Source: Nocardia brasiliensis IFM 10847 | GTDB lineage: Bacteria > Actinomycetota > Actinomycetes > Mycobacteriales > Mycobacteriaceae | Reading direction: 5' to 3' | Length of the DNA: 64,000 nucleotides | Assembly: GCF_000710915.1 (NCBI RefSeq) | Contig: NZ_BAUA01000209.1 | Coordinates: 1-64,000 of the forward strand | Shown here: positions 15,572 to 52,955 of the stretch, piece by piece | How the letters are laid out: each line of letters begins with the position of its first letter | Numbering within the stretch: position 1 is the stretch's first letter | Translations under genes and position numbers: made by a program | Notes under the pieces: model-generated | Database searches by the model: none | The model's input: the letters and a program-made list of their open reading frames with translations, nothing else | What the model was told of the DNA's origin: nothing

Positions 15572-17245
15572 ATGACATCCACGCAGCACACACCGGTACT
15601 CATCGCCGGCGGCGGCCCGGTCGGGCTGTGCGCCGCGCTCTTTCTCGAATACCACGGCGTCCCTTTTATTCTGGTCGAGAAGCGAACGGCGGCGTCGGCG
15701 CTGCCGCGCTCGCGCGGCCTGCACGTGCGGACCGTCGAGCTGTTCCGGCAGCTCGGCATCGAAACGAAGGTGCAGCAGGTCGCGGCGGGCGTGCTGAAGG
15801 CGGGACATTTCGGCGGCGCGAGCCGGGGCGCCACGCTGACCACGGCCGAGCGACTGGATCTCACCGCCTTCGTCCGCGGCCTGGCGCAGCACGATCCCAG
15901 CCCGTCGTCCTTCTGTTTCCTGCCGCAGGCCGAACTGGAGCCGTTGCTCGCCGAACTCGCCCGCACGCGCGGCGGCGACCTGCGCTTCGGCGTCGAGCTG
16001 GTGGACGTGGCGGCCGATGACGACGGCGTCACGGCGACCCTGCGGGACCGGGACGCGGGCACCACGATCGTCCGGGCGGATTATCTGATCGCCGCCGACG
16101 GTGGCGGCAGCTCGATCCGGCGGCGGCTCGGCATCACCGGTTGGACGCTGCCACCCACGCACCACTACATCAACACCTTCGTCCGGACCGACCTCACCGA
16201 CGTGCTGCACGGACGGACGTTCAGCCAGTGCGAGATCGTCAACGACGCGGTGCGCTGCCTCGTGCTCACCAAGAACAACACCGACGAGTGGTCGTTTCAC
16301 CTGGAATACGACCCGGCGCAGGCGAGTTCGTCCGATTACACCGGGCAACGCTGCGTCGAGTTGGTGCGCGCGGCGATCGGCGTCGCCGACATCGATGTCG
16401 AACTGCTCGGCCGAACCGCCTGGGACACCGGTGTTTTCGTGGCCGACGAGTACCGTCGCGGCCGCGTCTTCCTCGCCGGTGACGCCGCGCACCGGCACGC
16501 GCCGTGGGGCGGCTACGGCGCCAACACCGGAATCGCCGACGTACACAACCTGACCTGGAAGCTGGCGACGGTGCTGTCCGGCACCGCGGGCCCGGACCTG
16601 CTCGACAGCTACCAGGCCGAACGCCGTCCGCGTGCGCTCGTCGCGGCCGAACAGGCCCGGCTCGGCACCGATTTCGACACCCGGTACGCCGTTCCCACGC
16701 CGGACAACGCGGCCGATCTCGCCAGGCAGCTGAGCACCGACGCCGTGATGACCAGGTTCCGATACTGCTCGGCCGCGCTGTTCGGCGGCGCGCCAGGCGA
16801 AGCGCACGTCGATCGGCTCACCGGTCAGGTCGGTACCAGGGTGCCGCACCAGTGGATCGATCGGGCGCAGCAGATTTCGACGCTGGACTTGAACGGGCCG
16901 GGGTTCGCCCTGATCGTCACGGGCACGTCGGCGGCGTGGCGGGACGCGGTCTGGGCAGCCCAGTGGGACACCGGTATCGACATCACGGTGCACGCGATTC
17001 CGACCGTGGAGTGGGCCGCGTGCACCGGCTTGCCGGAAGGCGGTGCGCTGCTCGTCCGGCCGGACGGCATCGTTGCCGGTCGGTCCGACGCGGGCCTGCA
17101 CCCCGGGTCGCTCGCCGCGGTCTTGCGCCGCATCGTCGGTATCCCCGCGGGCGTCGAGAATTCCTACGGCACAGCCGATGCCGACGATGCCCGGACCACG
17201 GCGGACGGACCTGTGGCACACCATCGCACGGTGGCGAATTCCTGA
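15572..17245 (+). CDS. FAD-dependent aromatic monooxygenase (PheA/TfdB-like)
   Basis: 557 residues from the ATG at 15572; the open frame upstream lies inside lon. The order is typical of class A flavin hydroxylases: VLIAGGGPVGL at residues 9-19 for the FAD ADP part, a central YLIAADGGGSSIRRRLGI (DG motif), and RVFLAGDAAHRHAPWGGYGAN (GD motif). The C-terminal domain (about 400-557) is thioredoxin-like, as in phenol hydroxylase relatives. Such enzymes hydroxylate aromatic compounds or antibiotics with NAD(P)H and O2; the substrate cannot be told. It is monocistronic, between two hairpins. Confidence 0.86.
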   Translation: MTSTQHTPVLIAGGGPVGLCAALFLEYHGVPFILVEKRTAASALPRSRGLHVRTVELFRQLGIETKVQQVAAGVLKAGHFGGASRGATLTTAERLDLTAFVRGLAQHDPSPSSFCFLPQAELEPLLAELARTRGGDLRFGVELVDVAADDDGVTATLRDRDAGTTIVRADYLIAADGGGSSIRRRLGITGWTLPPTHHYINTFVRTDLTDVLHGRTFSQCEIVNDAVRCLVLTKNNTDEWSFHLEYDPAQASSSDYTGQRCVELVRAAIGVADIDVELLGRTAWDTGVFVADEYRRGRVFLAGDAAHRHAPWGGYGANTGIADVHNLTWKLATVLSGTAGPDLLDSYQAERRPRALVAAEQARLGTDFDTRYAVPTPDNAADLARQLSTDAVMTRFRYCSAALFGGAPGEAHVDRLTGQVGTRVPHQWIDRAQQISTLDLNGPGFALIVTGTSAAWRDAVWAAQWDTGIDITVHAIPTVEWAACTGLPEGGALLVRPDGIVAGRSDAGLHPGSLAAVLRRIVGIPAGVENSYGTADADDARTTADGPVAHHRTVANS

Positions 17246-36315: not shown

Positions 36316-36733
36316 AGGTGGATGCCTCGCTCTGCTGTGCGGGGGGATCGATTCCCTCTGCAATCGAATGTGATGCCCAGCACCATACGACACCCCTGCT
36401 ATCGCGCGAGCGGGGTCCCGGCATTCCGGACCCGCCGGGATGCCCGTGATTTGCGCCACATTCCATGTCGCTTCAACAGACAGCGCGGAGCGGTGAACGG
36501 ACCGCAAACACTTCGAACTCGATTAAAACGGAACAGGATTCGAGCAAGCTCGCCCGGAACAAAACCGTGGGTTGAAATCACGACGCGCCGATCGTCACAC
36601 GGCGGCAACAAATCTGTGGTCACCTTTCCCCGAGATGTACCCGCTGACGTGCACCGATGGGCACGGCAGCGGCCGCGTCCACCCGACCGGCGGCGCCGGT
36701 GGGTGCGGGCGCGGCCGGGGGAAGGAGAGCCAG
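36316..36733. other. Divergent intergenic region, sdhC to thiolase
   Basis: 418 bp holding both promoters. It is less GC-rich in the middle (GATTAAAACGG near 36530) and has a small palindrome CGAGCAAGCTCG near 36543. I found no convincing sigma-70 box pair and no classic CRP site. No gene is supported. Confidence 0.4.
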
Positions 36734-39520: not shown

Positions 39521-39920
39521 GACGACCTCCTGTGGAGGGTGCATCCAAGCGGATCGTTCTTGCCCGGTTGTCGATAGATATTTCCGCCCCGTTACCCCCA
39601 CATACCAGGCGTTACGCACAAGTTGTCCAACCGAAGCCGACACGTACCCCCACCCCCTACCGCTCCCCCGAACCGCAGACTCTACGAATTTATAGCCATG
39701 CAACTAGATTGCGATAGATAGTCCTGTGGACCTCGCTCAGCGAGTCTTGGGGGTATCAAGACGATTTCCTAGAGAGGCCTAGATTTCGCCATCGTGCGCA
39801 GGCCGTCACGATCAGGCGAATCTATCTCTATCTAGCGTTTTGCTGATAGTCGCGAATATTTGCCGGTTCGGGGCATGGCGGGGTCGCGCTCCGGGTGGGG
39901 GCGCGACGGTGCCGGTTGGG
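39521..39920. promoter_or_regulatory. AT-richer intergenic region with GATAGATA repeats
   Basis: 400 bp between two minus-strand genes, clearly lower in GC than the neighbours. CGATAGATA occurs at 39572-39580 and 39712-39720, and a related inverted form (TATCTCTATCTAG) near 39823. CTCGCTCAGCGAG near 39730 is a small palindrome. TAGATTTCGCC and GGCGAATCTA (39779-39822) can pair with one bulge. TATAAA on the minus strand (about 39692) could be a -10 for the hydrolase. No gene is supported. Confidence 0.5.
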
Positions 39921-46743: not shown

Positions 46744-48481
46744 TCAGATCATCGCGACGGGGTCGAGACGCCCGGCGAGGTAGCGGGCCCGGCACTCGCC
46801 GCGTCGCAGCTTGCCGCTGGTGGTCTTGGGTATGCGGCCCGGTTCGACCAGCAGTACCGCGCCCGGCAGCACCTCGTGCGCGGCCGCGACCGCCGCGCGG
46901 ATCCGGCGGGCGAGCACCGAGAACTCGGTGGGTTCGACGACTTCGACGGTGCTCAGTTCCGCGACCACCACGAGGTCCTCTCGGCGTCCGTCGTCGTGCC
47001 CGAACACCGTCACGTGTCCCGGCCTGACCTCCGGCGCGCACGCCTCGACCGTCGCCTCGATATCGGGCGGATAGTGATTGCGGCCGTCGACCACCACGAC
47101 GTCCTTGCGGCGACCCGCGATGTAGAGCTGGTCGTCGAACCAGAAACCGAGGTCGCCGGTGCGCAACCAGTGCACGTCGCTGCCGGCCAGGGCGGCATGG
47201 AAGGTCTCGGCGGTGGCGTCGGGCCTGCCGAAGTAGCCGTCGCAGACATTGTCGCCCGCCACCCAGATCTCCCCGACTCGGCCGGTCGGCAGCTCGACCT
47301 GGGTGAGCGGGTGCACGATCCGCACGTCCTGTCCGACGGGCACGCCGCAGCCGACGAGCGCCGCGCCGCCGAACGGTTCGTCCCCGGGCACCAGCGCGAC
47401 CACCCGGCCCTCGGACAGCGCGGCACGGTCGAAGCGCTGCGCCACCGGCTCTTCGTCCCGGGCGCAGACGGTGACCGTCAGCGTGGCTTCGGCGAGCCCG
47501 AAGCCGGGCGTGTGTGCTTGCTGCCGGAAGCCGTAATCGAGGAAGGCGGTGCTGAATTCGTCGAGCGCCTCGGCGCGCACCGGCTCGGAGCCGTTCAGCA
47601 GCAGATCGAGCCCGGACAGGTCCAATCCCGCCCGCTCCTGCGGCGTGGTCGCCGAAACCGTCAGGGAGAGACCGAAGTTCGGCCCGCCGGTGATGCCGAC
47701 CCGATAGTCGCTGACGGCACGCAGCCAGCGGATCGGCCGCTTCACGAACTCGGCGGGCGCCATCGTATAGCCGGGCACGCCGCAGTAGAGCGGGAGTGAC
47801 AGCCCGAGGATCAGACCCATGTCGTGGAAGAACGGCAACCAGGTCAGAATGGGCTTGTCCGGTGTGGGAGCCAGCGCGTGGCACAGCTGTTCCAGGGCCG
47901 CGGCCATGTTGGCGTGGGTGACCTGGACGCCGGTCGGCGCCTGCGTCGACCCGGAGGTGTACTGCAGGTAGGCCAGCGTGCCGCGCAGCGGGTCGAGCAC
48001 GGGCGCTGCCGAATTGCCCGGTGGCACGGCGGTGGTCACGGACACGTCGGGTGGCAGCCGCACCACTTGGCCGAGTCCTGGTCCGAGCACCGCCGGACTG
48101 GTCACGTCGCTGTGCGAGAGCAGGGCGGCGGTCGGTCGGGCGTCGGCGAGCACGGCGTGCAACCGCTCCCGGTTCCGCGTGCCCGCGGCCGGAAACAGCG
48201 GTACCGCAATGCGATTGCTGTACAGGCAGGCGAGAAACGCGACGGCGTAGTCGAGTCCGTGCGCACAGAGGATGGCGACCCGGTCCCCCCGGCGCGCTCG
48301 CGCCGCGCAGTCGTGCGGCGAGTTCTCCTGCCGCGGTGTGCAAACGGGCGTAGGTGATCGAGTGCGGCAGGCGTTCGTGCATCCGGTACCGCAGCTCGGT
48401 GTACGCGATGACGTCGGGGTGCGCCGCGGCCTGTTCGGCGACTCGCACGGCGAGACTGTTGCGCATCGGGTCGGTCGTCAC
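46744..48481 (-). pseudogene. Fatty-acyl-AMP ligase (FAAL), frameshifted
   Basis: The GTG at 48481 overlaps the PKS stop (GTGA). The N-terminal 69 residues (YTELRYRMHERLPHSITYAR) and the rest (from RVAILCAHGLDYAVAFLACL) lie in different frames. Removing one G from the six-G run at 48285-48290 joins them into a 578-residue protein, the normal FAAL size. Visible motifs are QYTSGSTQAPTGVQVTHAN (P-loop), GFGLAEATLTV, LRTGDLGFWFDDQLYIAGR, and the C-terminal Lys in PKTTSGKLRR. FAALs adenylate fatty acids and load them on an acyl carrier protein for a PKS, which fits the operon. It may be a true pseudogene, a phase-variable gene or a sequencing error. Confidence 0.85.
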
Positions 48482-51400
48482 GGGACCTCGCACGCCGGTA
48501 CCGGAGCGACCTCGTCGGTCGTCAAAAGATAGGTGTCGCTGTAGCGCAGCACCTGGGTGAGCAGCCCCGCGCCGCGCCGGGCGGCACCGGTGCGGGGCAG
48601 CGCGCTGCCGTCCGGGTCCGCCATCGACCGGTCCCAGCCGATGCTGAGCACCCGGCGGCCGACGTATACCGAGGCCAGCGCGTCCATCGCGGCATTGGCC
48701 GCGGCGTGCGCCGCTCTACCCGGCGCGCCGAGCGCACCGGTGGTGGCCGAGCACAGCAGGACGAAGTCGGTCGGGTCGGCGGCGGTCAGCTCGATCAGGT
48801 TGCGAGCCGCGTGCAGTTTGGGCGCGAACATCGTGGTCAACTGGGCGGGCGTGACGGCATCGAACGCCGCGTCGGTACCGTCGGCGGCCGCGTGCACGAC
48901 GCCGCGGATGGTGGAACCGCACTCCCGGATGTCGTTGAGCGCATTGGCGAGATCCGCACGGTCGGCGGCGTCGCAGCGCACGACCACGATCCGGTCCTCC
49001 CATCCGTCGAGCAGTGCGGGAATCGGTCGTGGCGCCCGGGTGAGCACCACGACGTCGCGAGCGCCGGAATCGAGCAGCCAGCGCACCGCGATCGAACCGA
49101 GTACGCCCAAACCGCCGGTGACCACGTAGGTTCCGCCGATATCCACGGTGGCCGGGAGTGCGCGGCGGCGCGCGTGCGCGAACCGGCGTACCGCGAAAGT
49201 ATCCGTGGACAACCGCAATTCGGCCGGTACACCGGGGGCATCGGTGACCAGCAGGCGGCACAGCGCGGGCACGTCCGCGGTATCGGTGTCGGCCCATACC
49301 AGCCGCACCGTCCGGTCGGACTCCAGTTGCAGCGACCGCACCAGCCCGGCGATACCGAACGAGGTCGCGAGTTCGCCGAAACGCGGCATCCCCGCGGCCG
49401 GGTCTCGTGGTGCCGGTAGCACGATCGTCACGGTGCGCGGGTGCGCCGCCGCGAGTACCTGCTGGAGCAGCACCAGCACGTGGCCGACGGACGCCGCGCT
49501 GTCCGTCACCGCAGTGCCGTCGAATTCGACAGCGGCCGAACTGGTTTCGGTCCAGACCAGGACCAGTGCGGCAGGTCCGTGCGCGAGCGCCGCCGCGACC
49601 AGCGGCCGCGCTGCCTCGGGTCCGTGTGGAATTCGATCGGTGGGCACTACCGCGCCGAGTGCGGTGCTCAGCCGGACGGCCAGATCCGAGTCGCCGATGA
49701 TCAAGGCGCGCTCGACGAGTGGGTCCTGGGCCAGGCCCGGGAGATCCCCCCGGCTGCCATGTCTCCTGACGGAACGAGAACGGGCGCTCGACGGGCCGCG
49801 GTGCGTCGACGGCCGGAATGTCGGGTGCCGCGAACCGGATCCGCACGCCGGAGAGGGCCAGACACGGAACACCATGCTGGTCGGTGCCGATCACGTCGCC
49901 GAGCAGGCCGGTCGTGCTCCGCGTGCGCAGGAACGCGTGCGCCTCCAGCACGGTCCGGCGGGGTTCAGCAGAGAGCCAGGCCGATTCGATGCCGACCGGC
50001 AGCGGGATCGCGTCGGCCGGTGCGTCCTCGTACCCGGTCGCCGCGAGTAGTTGCAGACAGCCCTCGACTGTTGCGGTGCTGTGCAATTCGGCGGCGTCGA
50101 ACAGGCCGACGGCCCGCTCGGGGCCGAGCGCGATGCCGCGCAGCACGCGCAGGCGCGGACCGTAAGCCAAACGCCGGCACTGCAACTCGTCGTAGAACGC
50201 CGCGGGCGCGACGACCCGCATCCGGTGCCGCCCGGCCCGGTTGATATCGACCACCCGCATCCATGCGACGATATCCGCGGGTGTGGGGTCGCCGCCCAGC
50301 CGGGCCGAAGCCAGCGCTCCGCCGTCGGTGACCTCCGCCCGCAGACTTCCCGCGCTGTCGAGGGCGCGGTAGTGGACCCGGGCCAGCACCCCGAATTCGG
50401 CCTGCTCGTGCACCACGAAATCGCTCAGCACGGTCGCGTCGGCACCCGCGTGCCGAAGCAGGATCCGCAGCCAGAAGGACGCGGGCACGGTGGGCGTGTC
50501 GCACACCACGTGATCGACGAGATCGTCTGCGGGCAGGGTCGGTTCGGCCGGCTGCGGGTCGGGCAGCGTGCGTGGCCTGCGCCAGATCCGTCGCGGCGCC
50601 GCGACGAACGGCCCCTGCGCGGACCACTCGATCGGCCGTCCGTCGAGGTGCAGCCGTGCCAGACAGGCGAGAAAGTCACCGGCCTCGTCGGCGCGGGTCG
50701 CCACCGGGTACACCGCATCGCGGAAATCGGGATAGGCCCGGACCGCCGGGCTCAGCACGGGTTGCGGCGCGATCTCCACGACCGTGGTCACGCCGTCCAC
50801 CGCCGCGTGCGCCAGCGCGGCGGCGAGTTGTACGGTGCCCGAGGCGTTCTCGGCCCAATACCGGCCGTCCGCCGCCGGGCCGGTGAGCACCGCGCCGTGC
50901 CGGACCGTCGAATACATGGGTGTATGCGGTGCCGCCGGACGCAGATCCGTGAGCGCGTCGAGGAAACCCGTGGGCACAGTGCCGGTCCGGCCGTGCGGGT
51001 CGGCATCATCGGTGAGGCGTCGGGCGAACATGTCGCGGCGCTTGGCCCGACGGATCACGGTGTCGATATAGCGGGCACTGCCCGTGACGAGCACGGCCCG
51101 CGGACCGTTTACCGCCGCGAGGTGGACCTGTCCGCGCAGCGGCTCGATCAGCTTGGCCGCATCCTCCGGGGTGGCGGTCAGCAGGGCCGCCGCGGTACTG
51201 CCCGGCGCGGGCAATCTGCTGTGCTGCACCACGATCCGGGCGGCATCGGCGAGCGGCAGTGCACCGCTGACCGCGGCCGCGGCCAGCTCGCCGAGCCCGT
51301 GTCCGGCCACGGCGTCGGGCCGAATCCCCCACGCCGACAGCAGTTCCGTCAGCGCCACCTGGAAGGTGAACAGCGCGGGCACGACGAGCGCGCTCGGGTG

Positions 51401-52702
51401 CGCGCCGCTCGCGGCACGGCCGCCCGCCGCAGCGAGCGCGAAGCCGTGCTTCGGTGTCCAGCTGCGTGGGCCACCCGCCGCGACGATCGTCTCGGCGGTC
51501 TCGGCCAGTGCGGCGGCGAAGACGCGGTGCCGGGCGGCGAGCGCGCGGCCCATCGCGACGTGTAGTGCGCTCTGCCCGGAAAACAAGAACAGCAGACGGC
51601 CCGGCCGTCGTGCCGAGGACGGGCCCAGCACCGCGGTGCTCGCCTCGCCATGCGCCAGCGCGTGCAACTGCGTCATCGCGTCGTCGCGGTCCTGGGCCAG
51701 GACCACCGCGCGCGTCCGCTCCGGTATCAATCGTGCTGTGGCCGCGGCGAACTCGCGCACCGAAGCGCCCGCGGCGCCGGCGCGCTCGAGCCGCATCGCG
51801 TAACGCTGGGCTTGCGCGCGGAGTTCGGCATTGTCCCGGCCGGTCACCGGGATCAGCACCGGCGGCTCATAGCCGCGATCGGCGCCGGTGGCCTGGCTGC
51901 CGCGCAACACCACCTCGGCATAGGTGCTGGCGCCCGCGCGGACGCTCACCCGGACGAGCGCTGCGGCGGCCGCGGGTGTCTCGGCCGCATCGGGCGCGAG
52001 CGGGCGATCGCCGTGATAGACCCGGAGGGCGGCCTCGATCAGCTCGCCGACGGTCGCGACGGGCGGTGCCGCCGCGCTGCTCACTCGCTCCGGCGCAGCC
52101 CCGGCGTGGCCGTTCGAACCGAAGGCCACCTCGGTGATCTGTGCGTACTGGCGATTACCGTCGCGGGCCGCGTCCGCGGTGCGTTGCAGGATCACCACCG
52201 CGCAGTGGTCGGGCTCGGTGCCGTTGGCCTGAATCTCGTTGGTCGACACGGGATTCGGTGGCGGCGCGGTGACATCGCCGACGATGGCGAACGGTACCGA
52301 CGCGTCGTCGAGTAGCCGTACCGCCATGCCGAGGGCGGTCAGGAACGACGCCTGCGCGCTGTCCAGCGTGAGGCTCGGCCCGTGCAGATCCAGCGCCGTG
52401 GACAACAGGTCGGCCGGGCCCGCGCCCGCGCCGAAGAGCACGGCGGCGCTGGAACCCGGTGCCCGGTAACCGATTCCGGCGTCGTCGAGCGCCTCGACCG
52501 CGACCGTCATGGTCAGCCGCTGCGGTCCGGCCATGGCCGCGTGCTCGCGCGCGGACAGGCCGAACCAGTCGTGGTCGAACGGCTCGATGCCCGCGGCGGC
52601 GCCCGGTGGCCGGGTGTGCAGCATTCGCCAGTATTCCTCGGCGCTCGCGGCCCCGGAAATCCGGCAGCCGATGCCGACGATCGATACCCCCGCTGCTGTC
52701 AT
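48478..52702 (-). pseudogene. Polyketide synthase (truncated KSQ-like, AT, DH, KR), frameshifted and catalytically degenerate
   Basis: The ATG at 52702 overlaps the ACP stop. Domains in order: a short KS-like region (1-240) with Gln117 where the Cys should be (TLDSAQASF) and without the later His motifs; AT (about 365-700) with GHGLGE at 467-472 instead of GHSxGE; DH (about 725-960) with H731 and P740 but Gly replaced by Asp735; KR (about 1190-1350) with TGGLGVLG intact but RAAHAAANA where the Tyr is expected. A frameshift occurs in the six-G run at 49746-49751; with one G fewer the protein is 1407 residues. There is no internal ACP or thioesterase. The acyl carrier and ligase are separate overlapping genes. 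Confidence 0.85.
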
Positions 52703-52955
52703 CGCATCGCGAGATACTCGACCAGTCGATCGATGTCGGGGTGGTCGTAGATCGTCGCGAGCGAGATCTCGACCCCCATGGCGTCCTCTAATAGCGCCGT
52801 GAGCCTGGCCAACTGGTGGAGTTCAAGCCGAGATCGGCGAAGGGCGCGTCGGTGGCGACGGTGGTCGCGTCCACGCCGAGCAGTTCGGCCACCGCCGTGA
52901 CCGCCGCGGTGGTGAGCGTCACACGCCGACTGTGCACCATTGAGCTCCGATCCAT
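52699..52955 (-). pseudogene. Acyl carrier protein, frameshifted
   Basis: From the ATG at 52955 the frame reads TAVAELLGVDATTVATDAPF then ADLGLNSTS, where S46 is the phosphopantetheine site (LGLNS for LGLDS). It then runs into a premature stop at 52788. Adding one base near 52809-52814 continues as LARLTALLEDAMGVEISLAT and YDHPDIDRLVEYLAMR, giving a normal 85-residue ACP whose stop overlaps the PKS ATG. Both halves are clearly ACP-like. It would carry the acyl chain for the PKS/FAAL. Confidence 0.83.

Follow-up and report, generated by a model that had tools for sequence, protein, structure and literature searches.

Fatty-acid–AMP ligases (FAALs) of the FadD32, FadD23 and FadD28 type work in the Mycobacteriales with partner polyketide synthases (PKSs), and in mycobacteria these partners are catalytically complete. 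KSQ loading modules and chain-length-factor subunits are ketosynthases (KSs) in which glutamine takes the place of the active-site cysteine. Here we describe an operon on the minus strand of a 9.15-Mb Nocardia draft genome (G000, 223 contigs) in which the genes for a free-standing acyl carrier protein (ACP), a PKS and a FAAL follow one another in that order. It lies in a window of 64,000 nucleotides, positions 1–64000 of contig C15. Chains of the FadD32, FadD23 and FadD28 type were among the PDB matches of the FAAL of a close relative, Nocardia brasiliensis NBRC 14402, but the partner PKS differs from those of the mycobacterial pairs in having lost acyltransferase (AT), ketoreductase (KR) and, in most members, KS catalytic residues. 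Judged by its active-site residues, the PKS looks catalytically dead throughout a group of ten species, and in the present assembly all three genes are additionally interrupted by frameshifts.

The operon PKS is related to the single-module type I PKSs (NCBIfam PKS_plus_SDR, Pks13 and Pks2), most strongly over its AT part. However, its scores fall far below the curated cut-offs, as do those of a live relative, and within the group the catalytic residues are missing. Like the KSQ and chain-length-factor proteins, the PKSs of this genome, G067, G056 and G008 have glutamine at the KS active site. Unlike those proteins, however, both KS histidines are missing, the AT nucleophile is lost and G049 has arginine instead; a KSQ loading module, considered on account of the Cys-to-Gln change, was rejected over the missing histidines and the lost nucleophile. 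In the part of the irumamycin PKS study drawn on here (PMC11672594), the inactive AT12 is proposed to have only a structural role, and for dead or pseudo-PKSs nothing closer than this single domain was found in the open literature, as far as the consulted portions of it go. AT12 is one inactive domain in a working assembly line, whereas here nearly all domains of the operon's only module are affected. The Nocardia PKS-I clusters treated by Komaki et al. (2014; PMC4035055) include those of N. brasiliensis NBRC 14402 and HUJEG-1, and passages of a 2020 survey of the genus (PMC7413640) report abundant mono-modular PKS families that possibly modify fatty acid precursors. Neither an ACP-PKS-FAAL operon nor residue loss of this kind is described in the results-and-discussion text of the former or in those passages of the latter.

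The PKS was matched at E ≤1e-120 in 76 of 150 Nocardia genomes, this one included. Residues were read at 47 loci, taken mainly from the top of the match list with 28 matching loci left out, and in the operon itself, whose KR residues were taken from the PKS piece after the frame break. The census thus comprises the ten-species group (this genome, G067, G056, G008, G049, G025, G087, G119, G084 and G129), 36 other relatives, and G072 and G139. In a tree built on the AT-dehydratase (DH) part, the ten species form one group with 100/100 support. All ten have glycine in place of the AT serine (GHSxG to GHGLG), and the AT histidine survives in four. The KS cysteine is retained in two members, the first KS histidine in three and the second in two, while the KR serine and tyrosine are each found in one of the ten, in different species, leaving no member with both. 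The DH histidine is present in 10/10 and the DH aspartate in 4/10; a C-terminal ACP motif was seen in none of the nine group members examined for it. Among the other relatives, by comparison, the KS cysteine, first KS histidine, AT serine and histidine, DH histidine and aspartate, and KR serine and tyrosine are present in all 36, the second KS histidine in 35 and the C-terminal ACP motif in 32. Measured against a competent type I PKS, the protein of this genome has glutamine and two gaps in place of the KS cysteine and histidines and lacks both the AT nucleophile and the KR serine and tyrosine. About 200 KS residues that complete relatives possess, including both active-site histidines, are absent from it.

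The species G129 (locus L141) is an intermediate: it retains the KS triad but has lost the AT serine and histidine, the DH aspartate and the KR tyrosine, and it has no C-terminal ACP motif. G084 likewise retains the KS cysteine and both histidines, and the two species lie inside the group. Because they fall there on different sides, the tree, if correct, implies repeated KS loss, although the inner forks of the group have bootstrap values of only 84–93 and the number of KS losses is uncertain. The loss of PKS residues is older than the frameshifts.

The PKS frame is open over 1402–1603 codons in all nine sisters of the group. Pairwise ratios of nonsynonymous to synonymous substitution rates (dN/dS), taken from 27 hand-picked pairs that share branches, were 0.24–0.44 for the PKS in ten group pairs versus 0.17–0.26 in 17 live pairs. 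Because the frame is open in nine sisters and dN/dS is 0.24–0.44, selection still keeps the PKS protein; the dead PKS is somewhat less constrained than the live one and far from neutral. The ACP and FAAL of the group are under tighter constraint than its PKS. For the FAAL the relation is reversed (0.04–0.21 in the group versus 0.19–0.34 among live relatives), so that the FAAL tends to be more constrained beside a dead PKS than beside a live one. The serine of the free ACP is retained in 9/9 sisters (LGLNS or LGLSS). Across the group as a whole, the marks of a pseudogene, namely broken frames and a dN/dS near 1, were not found.

The ACP-PKS-FAAL locus is inherited in place by Nocardia species, and its flanking genes are common, in place, to N. 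brasiliensis, G049, G087, G119, G031 and G072. A free-standing ACP gene with a 4-bp overlap to the PKS was found at 42/47 loci, and a FAAL frame of at least 529 aa behind the PKS likewise at 42/47; among the five loci where the ACP was not seen are L122 and L134, for which the sequence compared reached no further than the start of the PKS or stopped within it. An ACP-first order with a terminal FAAL, which had struck the sequence-only reading as unusual, is therefore the ordinary arrangement at this Nocardia locus. At L106, L107, L110 and L112 the FAAL frames reach 656–762 aa, with an extra ∼60–170 residues around N. brasiliensis FAAL residue 150–165. Parts of the locus have been lost elsewhere in the genus. 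The FAAL behind the ACP and PKS is reduced to short matches at L119 (G050) and at L120 (G090), and the PKS of both retains nearly all catalytic residues (G090 is without the second KS histidine). In G051, G072 and G139, matches to the ACP and FAAL were not found in stretches of ∼10 kb surrounding the PKS. Outside the ten-species group, G072 (L128) and G139 (L146) have the AT serine replaced by glycine and the KS cysteine lost, separately from the group. A further PKS match, at G022:C197:3183-4382, contains an internal TAG and TAA and is possibly a pseudogene of another Nocardia species.

The family assignments of the FAAL and the ACP were made on the N. brasiliensis copies. The FAAL matches PF00501 (AMP-binding, 1.2e-53) and PF23024 (DIP2-like C-terminal AMP domain, 1e-11), and among NCBIfam models it scores highest with a fatty-acid--AMP ligase subfamily, below the cut-off (447 of 775 bits); the two domains and the nearness to FAAL models place it in the FAAL family. 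The ACP matches PF00550 at 6.8e-16 with its attachment serine present and belongs to the ACP family. Going by these families, most relatives presumably use the FAAL to activate a fatty acid and transfer it to the free-standing ACP; the one KS-AT-DH-KR module, which in most cases carries an ACP of its own, would extend and reduce the acyl chain. The three genes are probably translationally coupled. Parsimony on the tree suggests that the ancestor of the ten-species group lost the AT catalytic serine. Residues of the KR, the KS and in part the DH have been lost too, with probably repeated losses in the KS, and the C-terminal ACP has disappeared as well. Most likely, the FAAL would still load fatty acyl chains onto the ACP, and the dead PKS would, with less certainty, serve as a platform, docking or holding protein for the acyl-ACP and not as a chain extender. 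The operon has no fourth gene to release or export the acyl chain. We consider it rather probable, from residues and codons, that the dead PKS is a non-catalytic partner in a FAAL-ACP locus that error or recent mutation has interrupted in this genome. The wider proposal, that a whole single-module type I PKS has turned pseudoenzyme through loss of AT, KR and, repeatedly, KS catalysis and is retained by selection because it serves a FAAL-ACP pair under raised constraint in a structural or regulatory role, is put forward more tentatively, with a chance somewhat short of even. Genome mining would be expected to call the locus a PKS cluster and to predict a polyketide. If the proposal is true, the group makes no polyketide by this locus and keeps a 1400-residue protein for something else. 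The loci form a graded series that begins with complete modules, passes through an AT-dead PKS whose KS triad is still whole and ends with a KS shorter by ∼200 residues, and this series would allow tests of the route from megasynthase to pseudoenzyme and of the use made of a lone FAAL's acyl-ACP.

The group PKS could alternatively be alive, with an AT supplied in trans and a reduced chemistry carried by the KS in a few members and by the DH in some. The intact KS cysteine and histidines of G129 and G084 speak for this, as do the DH histidine in every member and the DH aspartate in 4/10. On the other hand, the KS cysteine is missing from 8/10 members, the first KS histidine from 7/10 and the second from 8/10, the KR serine and tyrosine never occur together, and the C-terminal ACP motif is absent from all nine members examined; we regard this alternative as unlikely, though it deserves to be kept in mind. 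Several further points weigh against a retained non-catalytic PKS. Residual chemistry is conceivable given the DH histidine (10/10), DH aspartate (4/10), AT histidine (4/10) and KR nucleotide-binding motif, and G129, whose KS triad is complete like that of G084, might still carry out condensation if malonyl groups were loaded in trans. For the PKS, the group has higher dN/dS values than live relatives do, which is what relaxed selection would produce. For the FAAL, the ranges of the group and the live relatives meet at 0.19–0.21, and several live FAALs have variable extra stretches that may raise the live values. The losses in G072 and G139, with no adjoining ACP or FAAL, read as plain loss of function. 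A structure prediction of PKS residues 1–720 from a three-row alignment gave a mean predicted local distance difference test (pLDDT) score of 30 and was not used.

The features of the operon are collected in Table 1. Its nearest named relatives are N. brasiliensis NBRC 14402 (G067, L009) and N. vulneris NBRC 108936 (G008, L010), with DNA identities over 7.2 kb of 94.6% and 93.7%, respectively. A second copy was sought in the present genome, where the PKS part gave one match at E ≤1e-60 and a DNA search returned, besides the operon itself, only short matches of 46–267 bases.

Table 1. Positions in the window of the operon genes, the PKS domains and one adjacent indel.
Feature	Position	Strand	Remarks
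Free-standing ACP gene	52699..52955	-	One-base deletion at ∼52817; four sister species have an open frame of 85 aa; PF00550 matched by the N. brasiliensis copy
PKS gene (shrunken KS, AT, DH, KR)	48478..52702	-	One-base insertion in C run 49746–49751; sisters without C-terminal ACP
FAAL gene	46744..48481	-	One-base insertion in C run 48285–48290; open in four sisters
Ketosynthase remnant (about PKS residues 1–280, limits approximate)	51863..52702	-	Gln at the active-site Cys
Acyltransferase domain, PF00698	50738..51589	-	GHSxG to GHGLG, nucleophile lost
Dehydratase domain, PF14765	49835..50218	-	His retained, Asp to Glu
Ketoreductase domain, PF08659	48634..49134	-	Downstream of the frame break; nucleotide-binding motif retained; catalytic Ser/Tyr to Ala/His
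Further private one-base deletion in this genome	52973..52973	.	Lies within a G/C run, a short way upstream of the ACP gene

The sequence-only reading had found one apparent frameshift in each of the three genes, and alignment to N. brasiliensis NBRC 14402 and N. vulneris bears this out. The break in the ACP gene is a one-base deletion directly after the phosphopantetheine serine codon, and those in the PKS and FAAL genes are one-base insertions, each in a six-base C run; all other gaps inside the operon genes relative to both relatives are of 3, 6 or 9 bases. That reading had also called for a comparison with sister strains. In the four close sisters (G067, G056, G008 and G049) all three genes proved to be open, with an ACP of 85 aa, a PKS of 1402–1409 aa and a FAAL of 576–582 aa (the FAAL length varies with the start codon chosen by the script), in agreement with the 85, 1407 and 578 residues predicted for the repaired genes. 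A predicted set of three 4-bp junctions held for the ACP/PKS junction, which is a 4-bp overlap in the four sisters, but three genes give only two junctions. The three frameshifts are private to this assembly.

They also cluster beyond the background of this genome. Eighteen contig samples were set against the syntenic regions of N. vulneris, which gave 253 gene comparisons over 362 kb of coding sequence; the sample was anchored on AMP-binding genes and is hence not random. A gene was flagged if at least 75 bases were out of frame, and genes with fewer than 300 aligned bases, the ACP among them, were excluded. Four of the 253 genes were flagged in this genome, two of them the PKS and FAAL of the operon. 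The others were a long, repeat-rich gene on contig C190 (L069), whose one-base deletion relative to N. vulneris is the clearest other break in the sample, and a gene on contig C3 with a short shift (87 of 825 bases). In the reverse direction 2/255 genes were flagged, namely the uncorrected PKS frame of this genome and the C190 gene, both of them sites already flagged in the forward comparison. From the two background breaks, 0.034 breaks are expected in the operon, and the probability of three or more is ∼7e-6. Elsewhere on the contig, non-triplet gaps near 17200, 19053, 36631–36716, 45115 and 69180 lie at called gene starts or ends, and none reached the 75-base threshold.

The sequence-only reading had described the locus as freshly decaying, switchable or badly sequenced. 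We conclude that the three indels are either local consensus errors or very recent mutations, and the odds are about even, with a slight lean towards error. They are read as very recent or erroneous because the surrounding codons show no relaxed selection. Changes unique to this genome's own lineage, given as synonymous/nonsynonymous, number 3/1 in the ACP, 32/9 in the PKS and 19/2 in the FAAL; the corresponding counts are 2/0, 20.5/10.5 and 17/0 for the N. brasiliensis lineage, 0/1, 20/13 and 11/1 for that of G056, and 1/1, 24/13 and 12/1 for that of N. vulneris, a comparable pattern in all four. Non-coding DNA has 11.2 substitutions per non-triplet indel, and at that ratio the joint probability of ordinary decay giving three frameshifts together with so few nonsynonymous changes is at most 0.0018 (0.009 with the ratio halved). 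Ordinary slow decay in this lineage is thus disfavoured, and in terms of a pseudogene the operon of this genome has the frame breaks, three of them, but not the relaxed codons. Decay that is both real and recent, in an operon dispensable to this strain, has in our judgement a little under an even chance, with the absence of a nonsynonymous excess and the low joint probability counting against it. In its favour, all three cistrons of one unit are hit while neighbouring genes are spared, and loss at this locus recurs in the genus (G050, G090, G051, G072, G139).

General poor sequence quality found no support, the sampled frames elsewhere being almost all open (the same genome has open nonribosomal peptide synthetase frames of 11801 and 8718 aa) and length differences in G/C runs being rare and symmetric. 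Over ∼404 kb, one-base differences in such runs relative to N. vulneris made 12 longer and 12 shorter in this genome, the PKS break itself counting among the longer, and 162 of 163 G/C runs of at least five bases with identical flanks were of equal length, under a filter that excluded the operon's own two sites. Local consensus errors of the draft, for example in a low-coverage stretch, with the operon intact in the strain, are about as probable as not. Unrelaxed codons fit such errors, as does the high GC content of the operon (71.9%): among 309 sampled 6.2-kb windows, only three reach this value, and the operon accounts for one of the three. In a three-way comparison over 24 kb, this genome had eight private non-triplet indels against four and two in two relatives, and six of the eight altered a short G/C run by one base, three of the six beyond the operon genes. 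However, the excess of eight over four and two is small, broken genes are absent from the other two windows with operon-level GC (contigs C147 and C162), the rarity and symmetry of G/C-run differences speak against errors, and errors would need to have hit each of three genes once. A switch by programmed frameshifting or phase variation at G runs would account for two of the three breaks lying in six-base C/G runs. It would be expected to show a conserved slip site and relatives out of frame, but all three genes are in frame in the four sisters, and N. vulneris has no five- or six-base run at the FAAL tract. The ACP break, moreover, lies in no long run, and three independent switches would be required, which leaves the switch very improbable.

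Elsewhere in the window, three private one-base indels were seen in or beside short C/G runs of a single non-coding stretch (39753–39896).

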